Shown here in pieces: positions 41,926 through 47,546 of a stretch of DNA of 47,546 nucleotides (position 1 is its first letter; the number at the start of each line of letters is the position of its first letter). The stretch covers positions 1 through 47,546 of the forward strand of contig JAACFE010000009.1 in NCBI GenBank assembly GCA_009937525.1, read 5' to 3'. A model generated the notes under the pieces. The model had not been told where the DNA came from, searched no databases, and saw only the letters and a program-made list of their open reading frames with translations. Origin of the DNA: Gammaproteobacteria bacterium (GTDB lineage: Bacteria > Pseudomonadota > Gammaproteobacteria > Steroidobacterales > Woeseiaceae). The position numbers and the translations under genes were made by a program.

Positions 41926-42237
41926 TCACTTGATGACCCGGTTCTGCCAGGCCGTGGATTCGTATTCGGCCTGCCGGACAGCGGCTTCAGACTGGAAACG
42001 CGCCTTGTCGACCAGTTCCCATGCGGCGTCCATGTCGCCCTCTGCGGCTTGGTCGCGGGCCTGGTCGAGCAATGCCTCCGTCTGCAGCCACTCGGCACCC
42101 GCGGCAGCGGCCTCGAGTCGCAGCTGTTCCGCTTCCGTCCATTGCCGCTCGAATGTCGTCGTGCATCCGGCTGCAGCGAATACGGCGGCCAGGATGATCA
42201 CCGCGAGGCCGGATCTATTTGCGCGCACCGGGACCAT
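41926..42237 (-). CDS. SoxK-like lipoprotein (SoxXA-binding)
   Basis: This 103-residue lipoprotein has a lipobox (FAAAGC) and a helical, Ala/Glu-rich body (AEQLRLEAAAAGAEWLQTEA and LLDQARDQAAEGDMDAAWEL). This pattern is known from the SoxXA-binding protein SoxK, which raises SoxXA activity. Its start overlaps the soxA end by 23 bases, so the two are likely co-translated. The identification rests on size, coiled-coil-like composition and position between soxA and soxB. Confidence 0.72.
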   Translation of the reverse strand: MVPVRANRSGLAVIILAAVFAAAGCTTTFERQWTEAEQLRLEAAAAGAEWLQTEALLDQARDQAAEGDMDAAWELVDKARFQSEAAVRQAEYESTAWQNRVIK

Positions 42238-43042
42238 TGAATTCGAGTCCGTTACCCATGTAGCTCAGAAAATATTCGAGATTCCGGAATTCCTTGCTCT
42301 GCAGTGCGAACGGCTTCGCCCTTACGTCTCGTACACAGCCGAAAAAGCGCTGGTGCAACGAGATCACTGCGCCCAACTTGGAACGGTATACCGGGAAGTG
42401 TGTGGTGTGGCCCAGGCTGGCGCTCAGCCTGTCCGCGCGCACGTGGAGCCCGACCGACGTCACGTGACAATCCGCACACGCGAAGTTCAGCTGCCCGCGT
42501 TTGCTGTAGTAGAAGCGCTTACCGTCCTCGTAGGCGGCGAGCGCTCCCGGCTCGTCTGCGGGAACCCGGGTCGCCACCGGCTTGCCGCGGGCGGCATAGG
42601 CGAGATAGGCCGTGATGCTGATGAGTTCGTCCGAGTCATAGGGCAGAGCCGGCAGCCGGTGCGCCTGCCTGCAATGGTTTATGGCCAGTGCGAGCGTCAC
42701 GACCTCGCCCCTGCCCGCGTCGAATCGGGGATACGCTGGACGGATATCGGCTACGGGCTGAGCGAAACAATCGGCGAGTTTCGCCTCGTCCGGCATGGTC
42801 TCGTGCCACAGGGATTCGCCCTGCTCGATTGCGAATTCGTAGGGCGGAAACTCCTCGATGTCCTGCCACTGGCGACGCGCGTCTTCATCGATCGCGTAGA
42901 TACCGTTGGCGAACTCCGCGAACGGCACGTCGGGAAAACGCGCCTGGTAGTACTCGACGAACGCCTCGCGGTCTTCCTCGGGACCCGCCAGCGACAGGAG
43001 TGGCGCAAGGCCCAGCAACAGCAACGCGGCATAATTCTTCAT
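42215..43042 (-). CDS. soxA: SoxA, cytochrome c subunit of the SoxXA complex
   Basis: This 275-residue periplasmic haem protein, with SoxX, attaches thiosulfate to SoxY. The signal peptide ends near LSLAGP. It has a single canonical haem motif, CADCH (near residue 189), so it is the mono-haem type; a disulfide-like Cys pair (CFAQP, NHCRQ) marks the position of the lost haem in di-haem homologues. The active-site cysteine, which becomes a persulfide ligand, is in FFGCVRDVRAKPF (near residue 235). The usual YDSDEL and VRDVRA segments are present. Confidence 0.93.
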   Translation of the reverse strand: MKNYAALLLLGLAPLLSLAGPEEDREAFVEYYQARFPDVPFAEFANGIYAIDEDARRQWQDIEEFPPYEFAIEQGESLWHETMPDEAKLADCFAQPVADIRPAYPRFDAGRGEVVTLALAINHCRQAHRLPALPYDSDELISITAYLAYAARGKPVATRVPADEPGALAAYEDGKRFYYSKRGQLNFACADCHVTSVGLHVRADRLSASLGHTTHFPVYRSKLGAVISLHQRFFGCVRDVRAKPFALQSKEFRNLEYFLSYMGNGLEFNGPGARK

Positions 43043-43067
43043 CGTCTTGTAGGCTCGCCGCGACCCG

Positions 43068-43382
43068 TTATTTCAGTACGGTCTCGAGTTCGTCGGTAGC
43101 GCCCTTGTTGTCAACCCAGCTGACCTTGAGCGTGTCACCTGCCTTCGCACCACTGAAGCTGAAACCGAAATACGGGTTCTTCGATACGGCCGTGCTTAAA
43201 TTGGCAACCATCACCGTCTTGTCGTTGTTCGTGACAGTCAACTGGGTGATGTGGTGCGCGGGCACCAGCTCGCCGGTGTCAGCGTCCTTTCGCGAGCCGG
43301 TTTCCATGGGATGAAGCATCAGGCTCTTGATTTCCGCTACGTCCCCCGACAGTTTCGCTTTGACCTTTATCTTGCTCGCCAT
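43068..43382 (-). CDS. soxZ: SoxZ, sulfur-carrier partner
   Basis: This 104-residue Ig-like protein pairs with SoxY. The ATG at 43382 has GGAGACGA seven bases before it. The fold shows KIKVKAKLSGDVAEIKSLML HPMETG-like strands, the VPAHHI segment and SKNPYFGFSFSGAKAGD, diagnostic of SoxZ. It lies directly after soxY on the same strand with about 21 bases between. Confidence 0.94.
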   Translation of the reverse strand: MASKIKVKAKLSGDVAEIKSLMLHPMETGSRKDADTGELVPAHHITQLTVTNNDKTVMVANLSTAVSKNPYFGFSFSGAKAGDTLKVSWVDNKGATDELETVLK

Positions 43383-43403
43383 CACTCGTCTCCTTTCGCG
43401 GCG

Positions 43404-43856
43404 CTAGCCACCACAGCCACCGATCGTGACCTTGACCTGCTTCGTTGCGCTGTAAATACCGCCTTGCGTCTTGACGACAGCAACCACATCGGACGTCTCA
43501 CCCATCTTGATTCGGCTGGAGACATTGGGCAGCGTGCCTGCCGGGATCTCGAAACTGGCAGCCAGCGGACGCGGATTGTTTTCGACCACAATACTGATCG
43601 ATTCCACGTTCTCGAGCGTCGTGCTGATCGTGACCGGCACGACGGCGCCGTTTTCAGCGATCTCCGGGACTTTCAGCGTAATCTGGTCCGACGGCGCGGC
43701 CTCGGTCGCACCGAACAGCGCCGACATCGCGGCATCCGCCTCGGTCGCCGCGAACGCCTTCTCCGGCCACACCGCGGCCAGCACCGCTCTCGGCAAGGCC
43801 GCCAGCACCGCAAGCGCGGCACCACCTCTGAGCAATAATCTTCTGCCTACATCCAT
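43404..43856 (-). CDS. soxY: SoxY, sulfur-binding carrier
   Basis: This 150-residue carrier holds the sulfur intermediates on its C-terminal cysteine. It ends in the hallmark VTIGGCGG, with the carrier Cys third from the end. A twin-arginine signal is visible (GRRLLLRGG) with a hydrophobic stretch to VLAAV. The beta domain includes VPEIAENGAVVPVTISTTLE and VENNPRPLAASFEI. SoxYZ are exported as a pair through the Tat system. Confidence 0.95.
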   Translation of the reverse strand: MDVGRRLLLRGGAALAVLAALPRAVLAAVWPEKAFAATEADAAMSALFGATEAAPSDQITLKVPEIAENGAVVPVTISTTLENVESISIVVENNPRPLAASFEIPAGTLPNVSSRIKMGETSDVVAVVKTQGGIYSATKQVKVTIGGCGG

Positions 43857-43884
43857 ACTCCGTTCTCCATTGGGCTACCCGACG

Positions 43885-44271
43885 CTACAGCGTGTACAGG
43901 TAATCGACAATCTGTTCGACTTCATCTTCCGTCAAAATTCCGTGCCTGCAAAAAGGCGGCATCCGCGAATCCGGGTTTCGAATCGTCGCATCGCAGATCT
44001 GTTGCTTCAGCGCCGCGCGTTCCGGGTATCGCAGCTTCATCGCGACCAGCGGGGGGCCGATCGTGCCGGGCAGTTTCCCATCCTCGATCCTGTGACACGC
44101 GAGGCAGTTTCCCTTGCTGCGTTCCATCGCCAGGGACTTGCCAGAAGCGATGCCGCCGGCCGTGCTCGCCTGCGCGGCAGCTATGGCGAGGACCGCAACC
44201 GCGGCGGCCGCGGCCGCCAGCCGACGAACCTGGCACAACAACACGAAAAAAATCAGGTTTTTATGGTGCAT
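43885..44271 (-). CDS. soxX: SoxX, small cytochrome c
   Basis: This 128-residue mono-haem cytochrome pairs with SoxA. The haem motif is CLACH (near residue 56), with a Met ligand in SRMPPF (near residue 104). GTIGPPLVAMKLRYPERAAL between them is typical of SoxX. The N-terminus as read (MHHKNLIFFVLLCQ) is unusual, with a second hydrophobic run (AAAAAAVAVLAIAAAQAS) acting as signal; an internal start is possible. It is the first sox gene of the minus-strand series. Confidence 0.9.
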   Translation of the reverse strand: MHHKNLIFFVLLCQVRRLAAAAAAVAVLAIAAAQASTAGGIASGKSLAMERSKGNCLACHRIEDGKLPGTIGPPLVAMKLRYPERAALKQQICDATIRNPDSRMPPFCRHGILTEDEVEQIVDYLYTL

Positions 44272-44302
44272 CTACTGATATAGGACGCCTGATTCGGGGC
44301 GA

Positions 44303-45034
44303 TTATTCCATTTTCGTTCCGGGACCGGTATTCATCCGGCGGGAGAGAATTATCCGTGCGGCGCGCTCCGCCCACTCGGAGTAGATCGGGGCTCCCGGGT
44401 GAAACCCGTCGGATGCCATCATGCTGGCGTCGGCAACAAAGCGCAGGTTGACGAGCCCGACATCGCGATCTTCCCGCACGGTTTCGCCCAGCGCCTCATT
44501 GAATTCCGTCGCACGACTGCCCAGGTGCCAGCGCAGGGGCTGTGGCAGCGCCGGAAAACTGTGCACGGGCGGCAGTCCCGAGATCACGAGCAGGCGCACG
44601 CCGAACTTCTCCCTGAGCAGCTGGTGGAGCCTTTTCTGGCGCGCAAGCCAGGTGCCGAGGCTCATCAGCGCCAGCACATCGTTGACGCCGAGCGACGTCA
44701 GCGCGACATCGTAGTCGCGCGCCTCGACGTCGTCGAGATACCGCAGGATATCGGCCGTCGTGTACCCGGTCTTCGCGTGCAGGCCGAATTCGACGCGATG
44801 GCGGCGCGAGAGCCGCGACACCACCTGTCCGAGCAAAGCCTCGTCCTGGTGCGAAACGCCGACTCCGGCGGCGGCGGAGTCGCCGATCACCAGGAGCCTC
44901 AGCGGCGGCCCGTCCCCGGCGCAACCCTCCCGTACACCGGGCGGCTCGGGCAAGGTCGGGACCCGCAGGTTCGTCCATATGCCCTGCGGCACGATAACGG
45001 GGGCAAGGCCGATTGTCCGGAACAGGTAGTTCAT
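44303..45034 (-). CDS. SGNH/GDSL-family hydrolase
   Basis: This 243-residue esterase-like protein has the GDS catalytic block LLVIGDSAAAGVG (about residues 47-59), block III LTSLGVNDVLAL (about 112-123) and the Asp/His pair ASDGFHPG (near residue 209). A possible membrane-proximal hydrophobic N-terminus (MNYLFRTIGLAPVIVPQ) could be an uncleaved anchor. Substrates range from lysophospholipids to acetylated sugars and cannot be set from sequence. It precedes soxX on the same strand by 31 bases and could share its promoter region. Confidence 0.88.
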   Translation of the reverse strand: MNYLFRTIGLAPVIVPQGIWTNLRVPTLPEPPGVREGCAGDGPPLRLLVIGDSAAAGVGVSHQDEALLGQVVSRLSRRHRVEFGLHAKTGYTTADILRYLDDVEARDYDVALTSLGVNDVLALMSLGTWLARQKRLHQLLREKFGVRLLVISGLPPVHSFPALPQPLRWHLGSRATEFNEALGETVREDRDVGLVNLRFVADASMMASDGFHPGAPIYSEWAERAARIILSRRMNTGPGTKME

Positions 45035-45459: not shown

Positions 45460-45819
45460 GGTCACCTCCTGCAGCGTACCCGGGGCAATATGACCTCCCC
45501 GTGAATTTTAGGCGGCACGACGTCTGGCGTCCATCGGGGTTTCCACCTAGATTCGCTTGGATAGCGCGTATAGCCGCAGGTTCCAATATAGCCCAGTCTC
45601 CGCAGGTACAAGGGGAATCCGGCGGCGGCAGGCACACAGGTAAGTCATTGATTTGATTGATCTTAACATTGTTCCAAGGGGAGATGACAGGAAACACGGT
45701 CGGGGAACAGCACTAGCCGACGCCCAGGTTCGGTGGGACTGTCAGGTCCACAACCCCTGTTAAATCACGCGCAAACAAAGGTACAGCTCCGCGAATGGGG
45801 CTACGGCGAGGAGTAAGGT
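45460..45819. other. Intergenic region upstream of the korA fusion
   Basis: This 360-base divergent gap holds promoters for the Cys-rich gene and the korA fusion. It is AT-richer in the middle (45645-45680, with CATTGATTTGATTGATCTTAAC), where a promoter is plausible. A ten-codon frame at 45684-45716 lacks good spacing from its GGGGAG. No tRNA, repeat or attachment-site core is visible that would mark a captured integrase. Confidence 0.5.
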
Positions 45820-47546
45820 ATGTCAGATTCACATGTCCAGGGCGATACCAGGTACTTGTTCAGACGAGACAAAACCTGGTGGGTGAAGGTCGCCGTACCG
45901 CGGACACTGCGGGACGAACTCGGTTACGACCTGCGCCGTTCGCTGCACACCCATGATCTCGATGCTGCGCGTGAAATCCGCTGGGAGGTCATAGAGGAAT
46001 TCCGGAACGAGATTGAAAAGATGAGAGCCCTCAAAGACGGCGAAAAAGACGACGGGAGCCAGCGCCCGGGTACCGGCAGAAGCGGCAACGGCAAGTCGCA
46101 GGCCGGACCGCTCTCGGTGGATCAGCACATCGTCGAGGTCGTCAGCGACTCCGGTGAGGGCGCACAGAAATGCGGCCAGCTCCTCGGCCTCGTCAGCGGC
46201 AAGATGGGTAACGGTGTCTGGACCGTGGAGATCATCCCGGCTGAAATCCAGCCGCCGGCGCGCTCGCAACAGGGTGCCAGCGGCATCCGCGTGCGCATGG
46301 GCTCGAAGTACATGACCAACATGGGCAACGAAGCGGACATGGTCGTGGCCTTCAACGAGCAGGTCCTCTACTCCCGCATCCAGAACGGCGCCTACAGGTC
46401 AGGCACGGTCGTACTTCTCGAGAACATGTGGGCCGAAGACCCCGACGAGAGAGTTCGCCGGCAATACGCGGAAGCACTCGCCGACTTCGAGGACCGCGGG
46501 CTGATCGTGCACGAGCTGCCAATCCAGCAGGAATGCCTCAAGCTCGTCGCAGATCCGCGCAAGGGCAAGAACATGTTCGTGCTCGGCATGCTCTGCCGGA
46601 TTTACGACCGCGACGCGGACATGGGCAAGGAAGAAATCGCCAGGATCTTCCGTAAGAAGAGCGACAAGGTCATCAAGATCAATCATGAGCTGTTTGACGC
46701 CGGCTACGCGTTCGCCCGCGACAACATCGACTACCAGTACAGCATAACGACGGCGCCGGAGGACCGGCTGAAATCCGCGCTGGTCATGAACGGTAATACG
46801 GCGGCGGGACTCGGCGTTATGGCGGCAGGCATGGATCTCGTATCGATGTACCCGATTACGCCAGCAACGTCGGCTTCCCACTACCTCGCGGAAGATTTCC
46901 ACCTGACGGGCGGCTTCGTCCACCAGGCGGAGGATGAAATCGCCGCGATCGGCTTTGCGATAGGCTCGTCCTATGCCGGCAAGACCGCCTGCACGATCAC
47001 TTCCGGTCCCGGAATAGCGCTGAAAACGGAGATGATCGGGCTCGCCGTCATGGCCGAGATCCCGCTGGTCATCATCGACGTGCAGCGCGGCGGCCCGGCG
47101 ACGGGCCTGCCGACCAAGATCGAGCAGGGCGACCTGCTCGCAAGCCTCTTCGGCGCACCGGGCGATGCACCCAAAGTGGTGCTCGCCGCTTCGACGATCT
47201 CGGAGTGTTTCCACTTCGTGATCCTGGCGCGCAAGCTTGCCGAATCGTTCCGCACGCCGGTACTGATTCTCACCGACGCCAATCTGGCAACCGGCGTGCA
47301 GGCCATCGAACGGCCGCAGGCAACAGAGGAATGGTTTGCACCGCCCATCGACCAGTCGCCCTGGGACGAGAACGTGCCGCCGTATGACTGGGATGCGAAG
47401 ACCGGCCTGTCGGAACGCCCGATCCCCGGCATGCGCGGTGGCGAATACATTCTTACCGGTCTTGCTCACAACCGTAACAGCAAGATTGCCTACGACACCA
47501 AATCCAACCAGGAAGGCATGGACATGCGCAGCCGCAAGCTGGCCGC
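45820..47546 (+). CDS. korA: 2-oxoacid:ferredoxin oxidoreductase alpha chain fused to a tyrosine-recombinase N-terminal domain (partial)
   Basis: The visible 575 residues begin at the ATG at 45820, with GAGGAG nine bases before it, and run open past the right edge. Residues about 10-65 (RYLFRRDKTWWVKVAVPRTL, then LRRSLHTHDLDAAREIRWEV) match the N-terminal DUF6538-type domain of tyrosine recombinases. A charged Gly/Ser/Lys-rich linker (about 68-96) follows. The gamma domain (about 97-310) has DSGEGAQKCGQLLGLVSGKM and RVRMGSKYMTNMGNEADMVV. The POR_N thiamine domain starts near residue 320 (MNGNTAAGLGVMAAG, YPITPATSAS, ITSGPGIALKTEMIGLAVMA, QRGGPATGLPTKIEQGD). A single uninterrupted frame links all parts. 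The enzyme couples 2-oxoglutarate (or pyruvate) oxidation to ferredoxin; the beta subunit should follow outside the window. Confidence 0.9.
   Translation, partial: MSDSHVQGDTRYLFRRDKTWWVKVAVPRTLRDELGYDLRRSLHTHDLDAAREIRWEVIEEFRNEIEKMRALKDGEKDDGSQRPGTGRSGNGKSQAGPLSVDQHIVEVVSDSGEGAQKCGQLLGLVSGKMGNGVWTVEIIPAEIQPPARSQQGASGIRVRMGSKYMTNMGNEADMVVAFNEQVLYSRIQNGAYRSGTVVLLENMWAEDPDERVRRQYAEALADFEDRGLIVHELPIQQECLKLVADPRKGKNMFVLGMLCRIYDRDADMGKEEIARIFRKKSDKVIKINHELFDAGYAFARDNIDYQYSITTAPEDRLKSALVMNGNTAAGLGVMAAGMDLVSMYPITPATSASHYLAEDFHLTGGFVHQAEDEIAAIGFAIGSSYAGKTACTITSGPGIALKTEMIGLAVMAEIPLVIIDVQRGGPATGLPTKIEQGDLLASLFGAPGDAPKVVLAASTISECFHFVILARKLAESFRTPVLILTDANLATGVQAIERPQATEEWFAPPIDQSPWDENVPPYDWDAKTGLSERPIPGMRGGEYILTGLAHNRNSKIAYDTKSNQEGMDMRSRKLA

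Follow-up and report, generated by a model that had tools for sequence, protein, structure and literature searches.

Enzymes acting as regulators of their own operons have precedents. PutA of Escherichia coli is a metabolic enzyme whose DNA-binding part, a ribbon-helix-helix, acts on the operon that encodes it, and BirA, NadR and PepA are other trigger enzymes. The isc operon is regulated by IscR, a member of the Rrf2 family commonly encoded just before iscS in bacteria, and DUF6538, the domain considered here, is an N-terminal piece of phage integrases that is thought to grip DNA. For PutA, binding to the putA-putP spacer only is described in the accessible part of PMC8249747; in that of a work on mobile-element recruitment (PMC8987985), integrases act by rearranging DNA, and the accessible part of a paper on Nfn (PMC6405883) makes no mention of "integrase". 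DUF6538 was not mentioned in the full-text literature searched, a body of work outside which most subscription papers lie, and no description of fusions of the kind reported below was found in it.

The locus analyzed here resembles PutA in that a DNA-binding part is proposed to act on the operon of the metabolic enzyme carrying it, and the spacer between divergent iscS and DUF6538-gltD genes in related loci is comparable to the putA-putP spacer. It differs in that the ribbon-helix-helix has as its counterpart an integrase-type domain found on four different enzymes, for which regulation is proposed only. Tyrosine recombinases have N-termini of the same Pfam family, whereas the enzyme fusions are without a recombinase catalytic domain; IscR, whose place the head may take in genomes with an IscS fusion, is unrelated in sequence, and the head is fused to IscS itself. 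The KorAB family (TIGR03710) supplies the enzyme body behind the head in our locus, whereas the domain-less korA orthologues that we used as controls have no match to the head. What is new with respect to these systems is that the head is of the integrase type, that it has been exchanged among four iron-sulfur (Fe-S) or redox enzymes and that a motif is shared upstream.

Results

An integrase-type head on a 2-oxoacid oxidoreductase

The window, by which we mean the whole 47.5-kb stretch of DNA that was analyzed, ends in a korA-like gene (45820..47544, + strand) encoding a DUF6538 head, a polar linker and a gamma/alpha-fused 2-oxoacid:acceptor oxidoreductase alpha chain, the frame being open at its 3′ side where it is cut by the window end, which is also the end of the contig (C31). 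Its ATG at 45820 follows a GGAG ribosome-binding site (45810..45813, +), and an in-frame TAA directly 5′ of the start codon (45814..45816, +) excludes a start farther upstream in this frame, in agreement with the fusion in one frame behind a ribosome-binding site proposed by the first-pass annotation. The DUF6538 domain (PF20172; residues 12–69; 45853..46026, +), our proposed DNA-binding head, passes the Pfam cut-off of 27 with 38.5 bits (E 9e-10) and was the sole match to this family found in the source assembly. It is followed by a variable polar linker (residues about 70–99; 46027..46116, +) that forms a low-confidence stretch in the structure model, by POR (gamma, PF01558; residues 112–297; 46153..46710, +; 59.6 bits) and by POR_N (alpha, thiamine-diphosphate-binding, PF01855; residues 332–504; 46813..47331, +; 162 bits).

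The best NCBIfam match of the enzyme body is 2-oxoacid:acceptor oxidoreductase subunit alpha (TIGR03710, cut-off 482.75), below which the truncated window copy remains (407 bits) and which a full-length relative (L067, on a 274-kb contig and 87% identical to the window fusion over the first 260 residues) exceeds with 488.5 bits. The oxidoreductase chain had been described as complete; it stops after 575 residues, against 714 in full-length L067. No recombinase catalytic domain was found by Pfam behind the head, which sets the protein apart from tyrosine recombinases and integrases; the Pfam domains behind heads are instead POR/POR_N, DHODB_Fe-S_bind, Pyr_redox_2 or Aminotran_5.

Conservation and selection

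Within a same-genus sample of 73 genomes, 28 korA orthologues (the window's own included) had at least 81% identity among the matches listed, and 27 of these 28, the window's own among them, carry the domain, the 28th (G092) being cut by a contig end. The first-pass annotation had named uniqueness to this assembly, and N-terminal peptides starting near Met68, as findings that would speak against a functional fusion: the fusion recurs in same-genus relatives and in other assemblies, and a methionine near this position occurs only in the window (68) and in L078 (69) among 24 listed relatives, so that it is not a conserved alternative start. Across 24 aligned fusions, omega (Nei-Gojobori, Jukes-Cantor) was low in both the domain (0.11) and the enzyme (0.085) and higher in the linker (0.58), and the head domain is, on these substitution rates, under purifying selection. 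Given this omega pattern and the lack of a conserved methionine near residue 68, the head is most probably translated, with selection acting on it as protein. An alignment of 36 domains on all four partners contains invariant residues, and heads are present in five families, going by the labels of the survey tool. The start of L060 was placed one codon late in the motif, omega and position counts, an offset too small to matter. In L095:7998-10046 (G064), the fused korA is broken into overlapping frames that form one frame in most relatives, probably through a sequencing frameshift.

Enzyme heads compared with integrase N-termini

Against the DUF6538 cut-off of 27 bits, KorA heads scored 38.5 (window) and 33.7 (L067), NfnA heads 32.7 and 39.0, and the GltD heads of families f188 and f269 41.8 (L300) and 34.7 (L293); an IscS-type head (L209, 20.6 bits) and a GltD-type head of family f177 (L186, 21.3 bits), one of each having been tested, fall below it, and their membership is assigned by our own profile and alignment only. 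The f177 heads are recovered, with E-values of 7e-20 to 3e-25, by a profile that we made from the heads of 18 KorA proteins and one NfnA protein. With profile A1, enzyme heads scored 77–142 bits (69 in a copy truncated where its contig stops) versus 30–52 bits for integrases, and the enzyme heads are by this separation in sequence a distinct DUF6538 subfamily. A domain tree of 58 columns was mostly unresolved and placed the IscS-type heads inside the f177 GltD-type group.

The AlphaFold model of the domain is fair (core pLDDT about 80–87) and has the order strand-strand-helix-strand-helix. A Foldseek search of this model against the PDB returned nothing at E≤0.001 (best E 0.75, a ribosome hibernation factor), so the predicted fold gives no independent support, and a PDB sequence search with the domain gave nothing convincing (best E 0.043, an uncharacterized protein). 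The full-length KorA model was poor (mean pLDDT 64) and was set aside. No match to the head was obtained in the phage search; the plasmid search gave four distant matches (33–42% identity), of which two are annotated integrases, one is an unannotated record and one has no listed feature. Six integrase genes (seven loci) were inspected, and none showed clustered AGGTAC sites.

Four partner enzymes in two bacterial groups

The head occurs on four partners, namely KorA, an NfnA-like reductase, a GltD-like flavoprotein and IscS, all of them redox or Fe-S enzymes. The proposal of an integrase-type domain on korA was thus borne out as to the fusion and proved too narrow as to the enzyme: KorA and NfnA-like partners are found in two families of one order, Woeseiaceae being one of them, and GltD-like and IscS partners in the order of genome G479, whose genomes are small and AT-rich and, as a guess, resemble those of SAR86. 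A survey of the window's order gave a DUF6538-head match in 37 of 296 genomes; four matches (G022, G112, G174, G251) resemble integrases by length and sequence, and the remaining 33 comprise 26 KorA fusions (23 in the genus, three in family f15) and seven NfnA fusions (G002, G063, G085, G086, G207, G183, G218). The gene set nfnA-nfnB-korA-korB-ferredoxin-tailed protein of G002 opens with the head-bearing gene, whose product is an NfnA-like FAD/NAD reductase (NF004862, 369.5 bits).

The class survey added one further genome in 369, G479, in which a head on a GltD-like flavoprotein leads a GltD-KorA-KorB operon, and the phylum survey (398 genomes) added two integrases and nothing else new. Matches occur in 73 of 203 genomes across G479's whole order, among which that of G1087 (32 bits, 443-aa frame) is probably an integrase. 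In G479's family, f177, a single match was obtained in each of 35 genomes out of 40. Of the 40, 24 yielded the GltD gene, which bears the head in 23, the 24th (G1048) running into a contig end; the 12 other head genomes have a 474–498-aa frame that on inspection was IscS in all twelve, and in the other four neither head nor GltD was seen. Within this family, head-bearing genomes have the head on GltD where GltD was found (23) and on IscS where it was not (12). In the 11 f177 GltD-type loci examined, the head gene is divergent from a head-less iscS, and in the ten IscS-type loci examined the head is on iscS itself with iscU next; one such frame (L209:2628-4049) passes the IscS model TIGR02006 with 674.6 bits (cut-off 643.2), and L217 has a GTG start. 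All 29 loci examined in f188 and f269 (for L304 of this set, the start is a fallback choice) have the GltD partner, and no isc genes were seen in the f188 stretches examined.

In the gene sets examined, the head gene comes first. In 81 of 81 loci the 118 bp preceding it contain no end of a same-strand ORF of 150 aa or longer, an arrangement that fits a leading gene with its own promoter as far as gene spacing can indicate. On the korA strand, a simple promoter scan gave no sigma-70-like candidate.

A motif upstream of head-bearing genes

The proposed operator of the window, AAAGGTACAG (45777..45786, +), has its GGTAC starting 40 bp before the korA start codon and contains the only AAGGTACA of the 47.5-kb window; a second upstream copy of AGGTACA (45604..45610, +, at −216) lies at a position that is not conserved and is hence weaker. 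The repeated AAGGTACA was first spotted by eye in upstream regions and tested afterwards. In the 230 bp upstream of the discovery set, AGGTAC[AG] occurs in 52 of 52 regions, 41 of which have two or more sites; the 119 sites compare with 2.5 on average and at most 9 in 200 dinucleotide shuffles. Upstream, the sites are 21 to 95 times as dense as elsewhere in these loci. The test set of f188 and f269, scored afterwards, gave 29 of 29 (AGGTACA shuffle mean 0.7, maximum 4). These 81 regions share sequence among relatives and so represent far fewer independent events, falling into 13 clusters; a single region taken from each similarity cluster gave a count of 13 of 13 (0.3 on average and at most 3 in shuffles). 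In an unbiased ranking of every 7-mer, AGGTACA came top, in 81 of 81 regions, the runner-up being present in 71, and six KorA-type loci outside the first count also had it (6/6), which brings the overall figure to 87 of 87.

The motif is closely linked to the domain. Domain-less korA orthologues, none of which matched the head (L092–L146 without L095, for example from Sedimenticola and tubeworm symbionts), had an AGGTACA-type site within 230 bp upstream in none of 51 cases, three of the 54 having been dropped as too short; a wider control window, from −230 of the first methionine to the conserved SDSGEGAQ peptide, contained one site in one of 54 (L107). No site was present in the 230 bp upstream of five further domain-less korA genes and a domain-less gltD (G000, G030, G095, G094). 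To these site-free controls the window's own genome contributes a GltD-KorA-KorB operon that lacks the domain; its GltD shares 61% identity with the GltD that bears it.

Each upstream region holds one to five copies of AGGTACA, and in 64 of 81 loci a copy lies within 60 bp of the start (KorA 23/24, NfnA 7/7, f177 GltD 11/11, IscS 10/10, f269/f188 GltD 13/29), some sites overlapping the ribosome-binding region. Spacing differs by partner: KorA-type loci have direct repeats 18–23 bp apart (10/24 loci), the seven NfnA-type loci have neighboring sites 21–27 bp apart, and IscS-type loci have, directly 5′ of the gene, a facing pair of TGTACCT and then TGGTACA 25–27 bp apart (10/10), with TGTACCTT preceding all ten IscS-type genes scored. 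In many f269 loci, facing sites overlap each other as AGGTACATGTACCT or a near variant of it, at about −115 to −155, and sites at about −130 are found in many GltD-type loci. The occurrence of sites in both orientations favors a DNA rather than an RNA target.

Across 16 whole genomes, paired sites were mostly not above a reversed control pattern, so a wider regulon is not supported. Of 29 paired sites, eight neighborhoods were read, and only that in G479 was operator-like: there a pair AAGGTACA...AGGTAC (L260:1501-1523) is flanked by two genes, one encoding an FTR1 iron-permease domain and the other TonB-receptor domains, and might be a second place of action of the head, in iron uptake.

Discussion

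If the head binds DNA, these fusions would have two properties of trigger enzymes: an enzyme and a putative DNA-binding domain share one polypeptide, and a candidate binding site, AGGTACA, lies upstream in 87 of 87 loci. We consider it probable that the head is an integrase-type DNA-binding module that binds AGGTACA and autoregulates its operon with the enzyme as sensor, as in PutA. Under this model, the first 69 residues would be a DNA-binding head like those at the start of DUF6538 integrases, put to use on a metabolic enzyme to bind an operator; this head would bind the upstream AGGTACA sites and control transcription of its own operon, and the enzyme part (KorA, NfnA-like, GltD-like or IscS) would report its own redox, cofactor or iron-sulfur state, which would serve as the signal. 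The sites near the start codon would suit repression. We infer DNA binding by the head from its family membership and from the motif, and for DUF6538 itself this activity is likewise presumed. The earlier alternative of a true DNA- or partner-binding module is favored by purifying selection, by the four partner enzymes and by the one upstream motif.

The second half of that alternative deserves separate weighing. A head that docks its enzyme to ferredoxin or assembles it with Fe-S machinery, with AGGTACA serving as the site of some unrelated regulator of these operons, would agree with all four partners being redox or Fe-S enzymes, with the ferredoxin-tailed protein in the KorA and NfnA gene sets (Fer4_13 in the copy tested) and with the ferredoxin-like part, by sequence reading, of the gene after iscU; we regard it as unlikely, since the motif tracks the domain and not the enzyme (0/51 domain-less korA, 1/54 with the wider window), is absent before the same genome's domain-less GltD-KorA-KorB operon, and a single docking module would need to fit KorA, NfnA, GltD and IscS alike. 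Less likely again is that the head acts on RNA and controls translation through AGGUACA in its own mRNA leader, as some autogenous regulators do. The proximity of sites to the start codon in 64 of 81 loci, in some cases overlapping the ribosome-binding region, would suit such control, and the closest fold matches, although non-significant, include ribosome-binding proteins; a single-stranded RNA site should, however, keep one orientation, whereas both are used, as in the TGTACCTT of the IscS-type genes, and the sites at about −130 in many GltD-type loci also speak against it.

Passive capture, in which an integrase promoter, start codon and N-terminus were fused by deletion and carried along without a function of their own, draws on the homology to integrase N-termini and on a few KorA and NfnA loci that share a short upstream DNA stretch besides the domain. 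The low omega of the domain next to that of the adjacent linker (0.11 vs 0.58), its retention in five families (by survey label) and on four partners, and the motif in 87 of 87 regions make this highly improbable, and the related first-pass suggestion of a captured integrase 5′ end that supplies only promoter and start leaves the amino-acid conservation and the link to the motif unexplained; domain and upstream sites seem instead to be kept together as one head. A chimeric assembly or misprediction in a metagenome-assembled genome could be suspected from a gene that runs off its contig, yet the identical join in many independent assemblies, for example in L067, refutes a chimera and leaves this explanation next to no probability, and the korA-DUF6538 fusion is real.

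On the autoregulatory reading, the IscS-type loci raise the question of IscR. No Rrf2-family regulator was matched in any of 12 genomes tested of f177, the family with both IscS and GltD fusions, and a match was present in 14 of 14 genomes tested of the window's order; a role of the head equivalent to that of IscR within f177 is plausible, the missing Rrf2 match being no proof of replacement. The Rrf2 loci examined in the window's order had no IscS match and are therefore unusable as isc controls. We put forward, tentatively and with less confidence than autoregulation itself, that operator and integrase-derived domain form a transferable head that has moved among Fe-S and redox operons, taking IscR's place in the small-genome order. 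If so, the first enzyme of a pathway would be its own transcription factor, with the partner swappable while head and operator stay. The autoregulatory model would provide both a testable function and a candidate target sequence for an uncharacterized domain, bring iron-sulfur metabolism within the trigger-enzyme concept by way of a DNA-binding part of the integrase type, and offer a candidate control of isc and 2-oxoacid oxidoreductase operons in bacteria without an IscR-family match. The swap between GltD and IscS at one locus is an unusual natural experiment on head function.

Several gene neighborhoods were observed in passing. In eight of ten IscS-type loci (L209, L211, L212, where it is further off, L214, L215, L218, L221 and L222), an aldehyde-dehydrogenase-like gene, named by sequence reading, lies upstream of DUF6538-iscS on the same strand, occupying the place of the GltD-KorA-KorB operon. 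A third gene of korA-korB operons (L054:10379-12844 and homologues) encodes roughly 720–840 aa; in the copy tested, a C-terminal Fer4_13 ferredoxin domain was the sole match in Pfam (E≤0.001) and NCBIfam (E≤1e-10), and relatives come after korB in many loci, with or without a DUF6538 head. In the window, a sox cluster adjoins the korA fusion on the opposite strand (42215-45034, −) and comprises a SoxA/TsdA-type cytochrome, SoxZ, SoxY and a cytochrome c in the SoxX position, with a GDSL-type hydrolase alongside, a content that likely marks a thiosulfate oxidizer.
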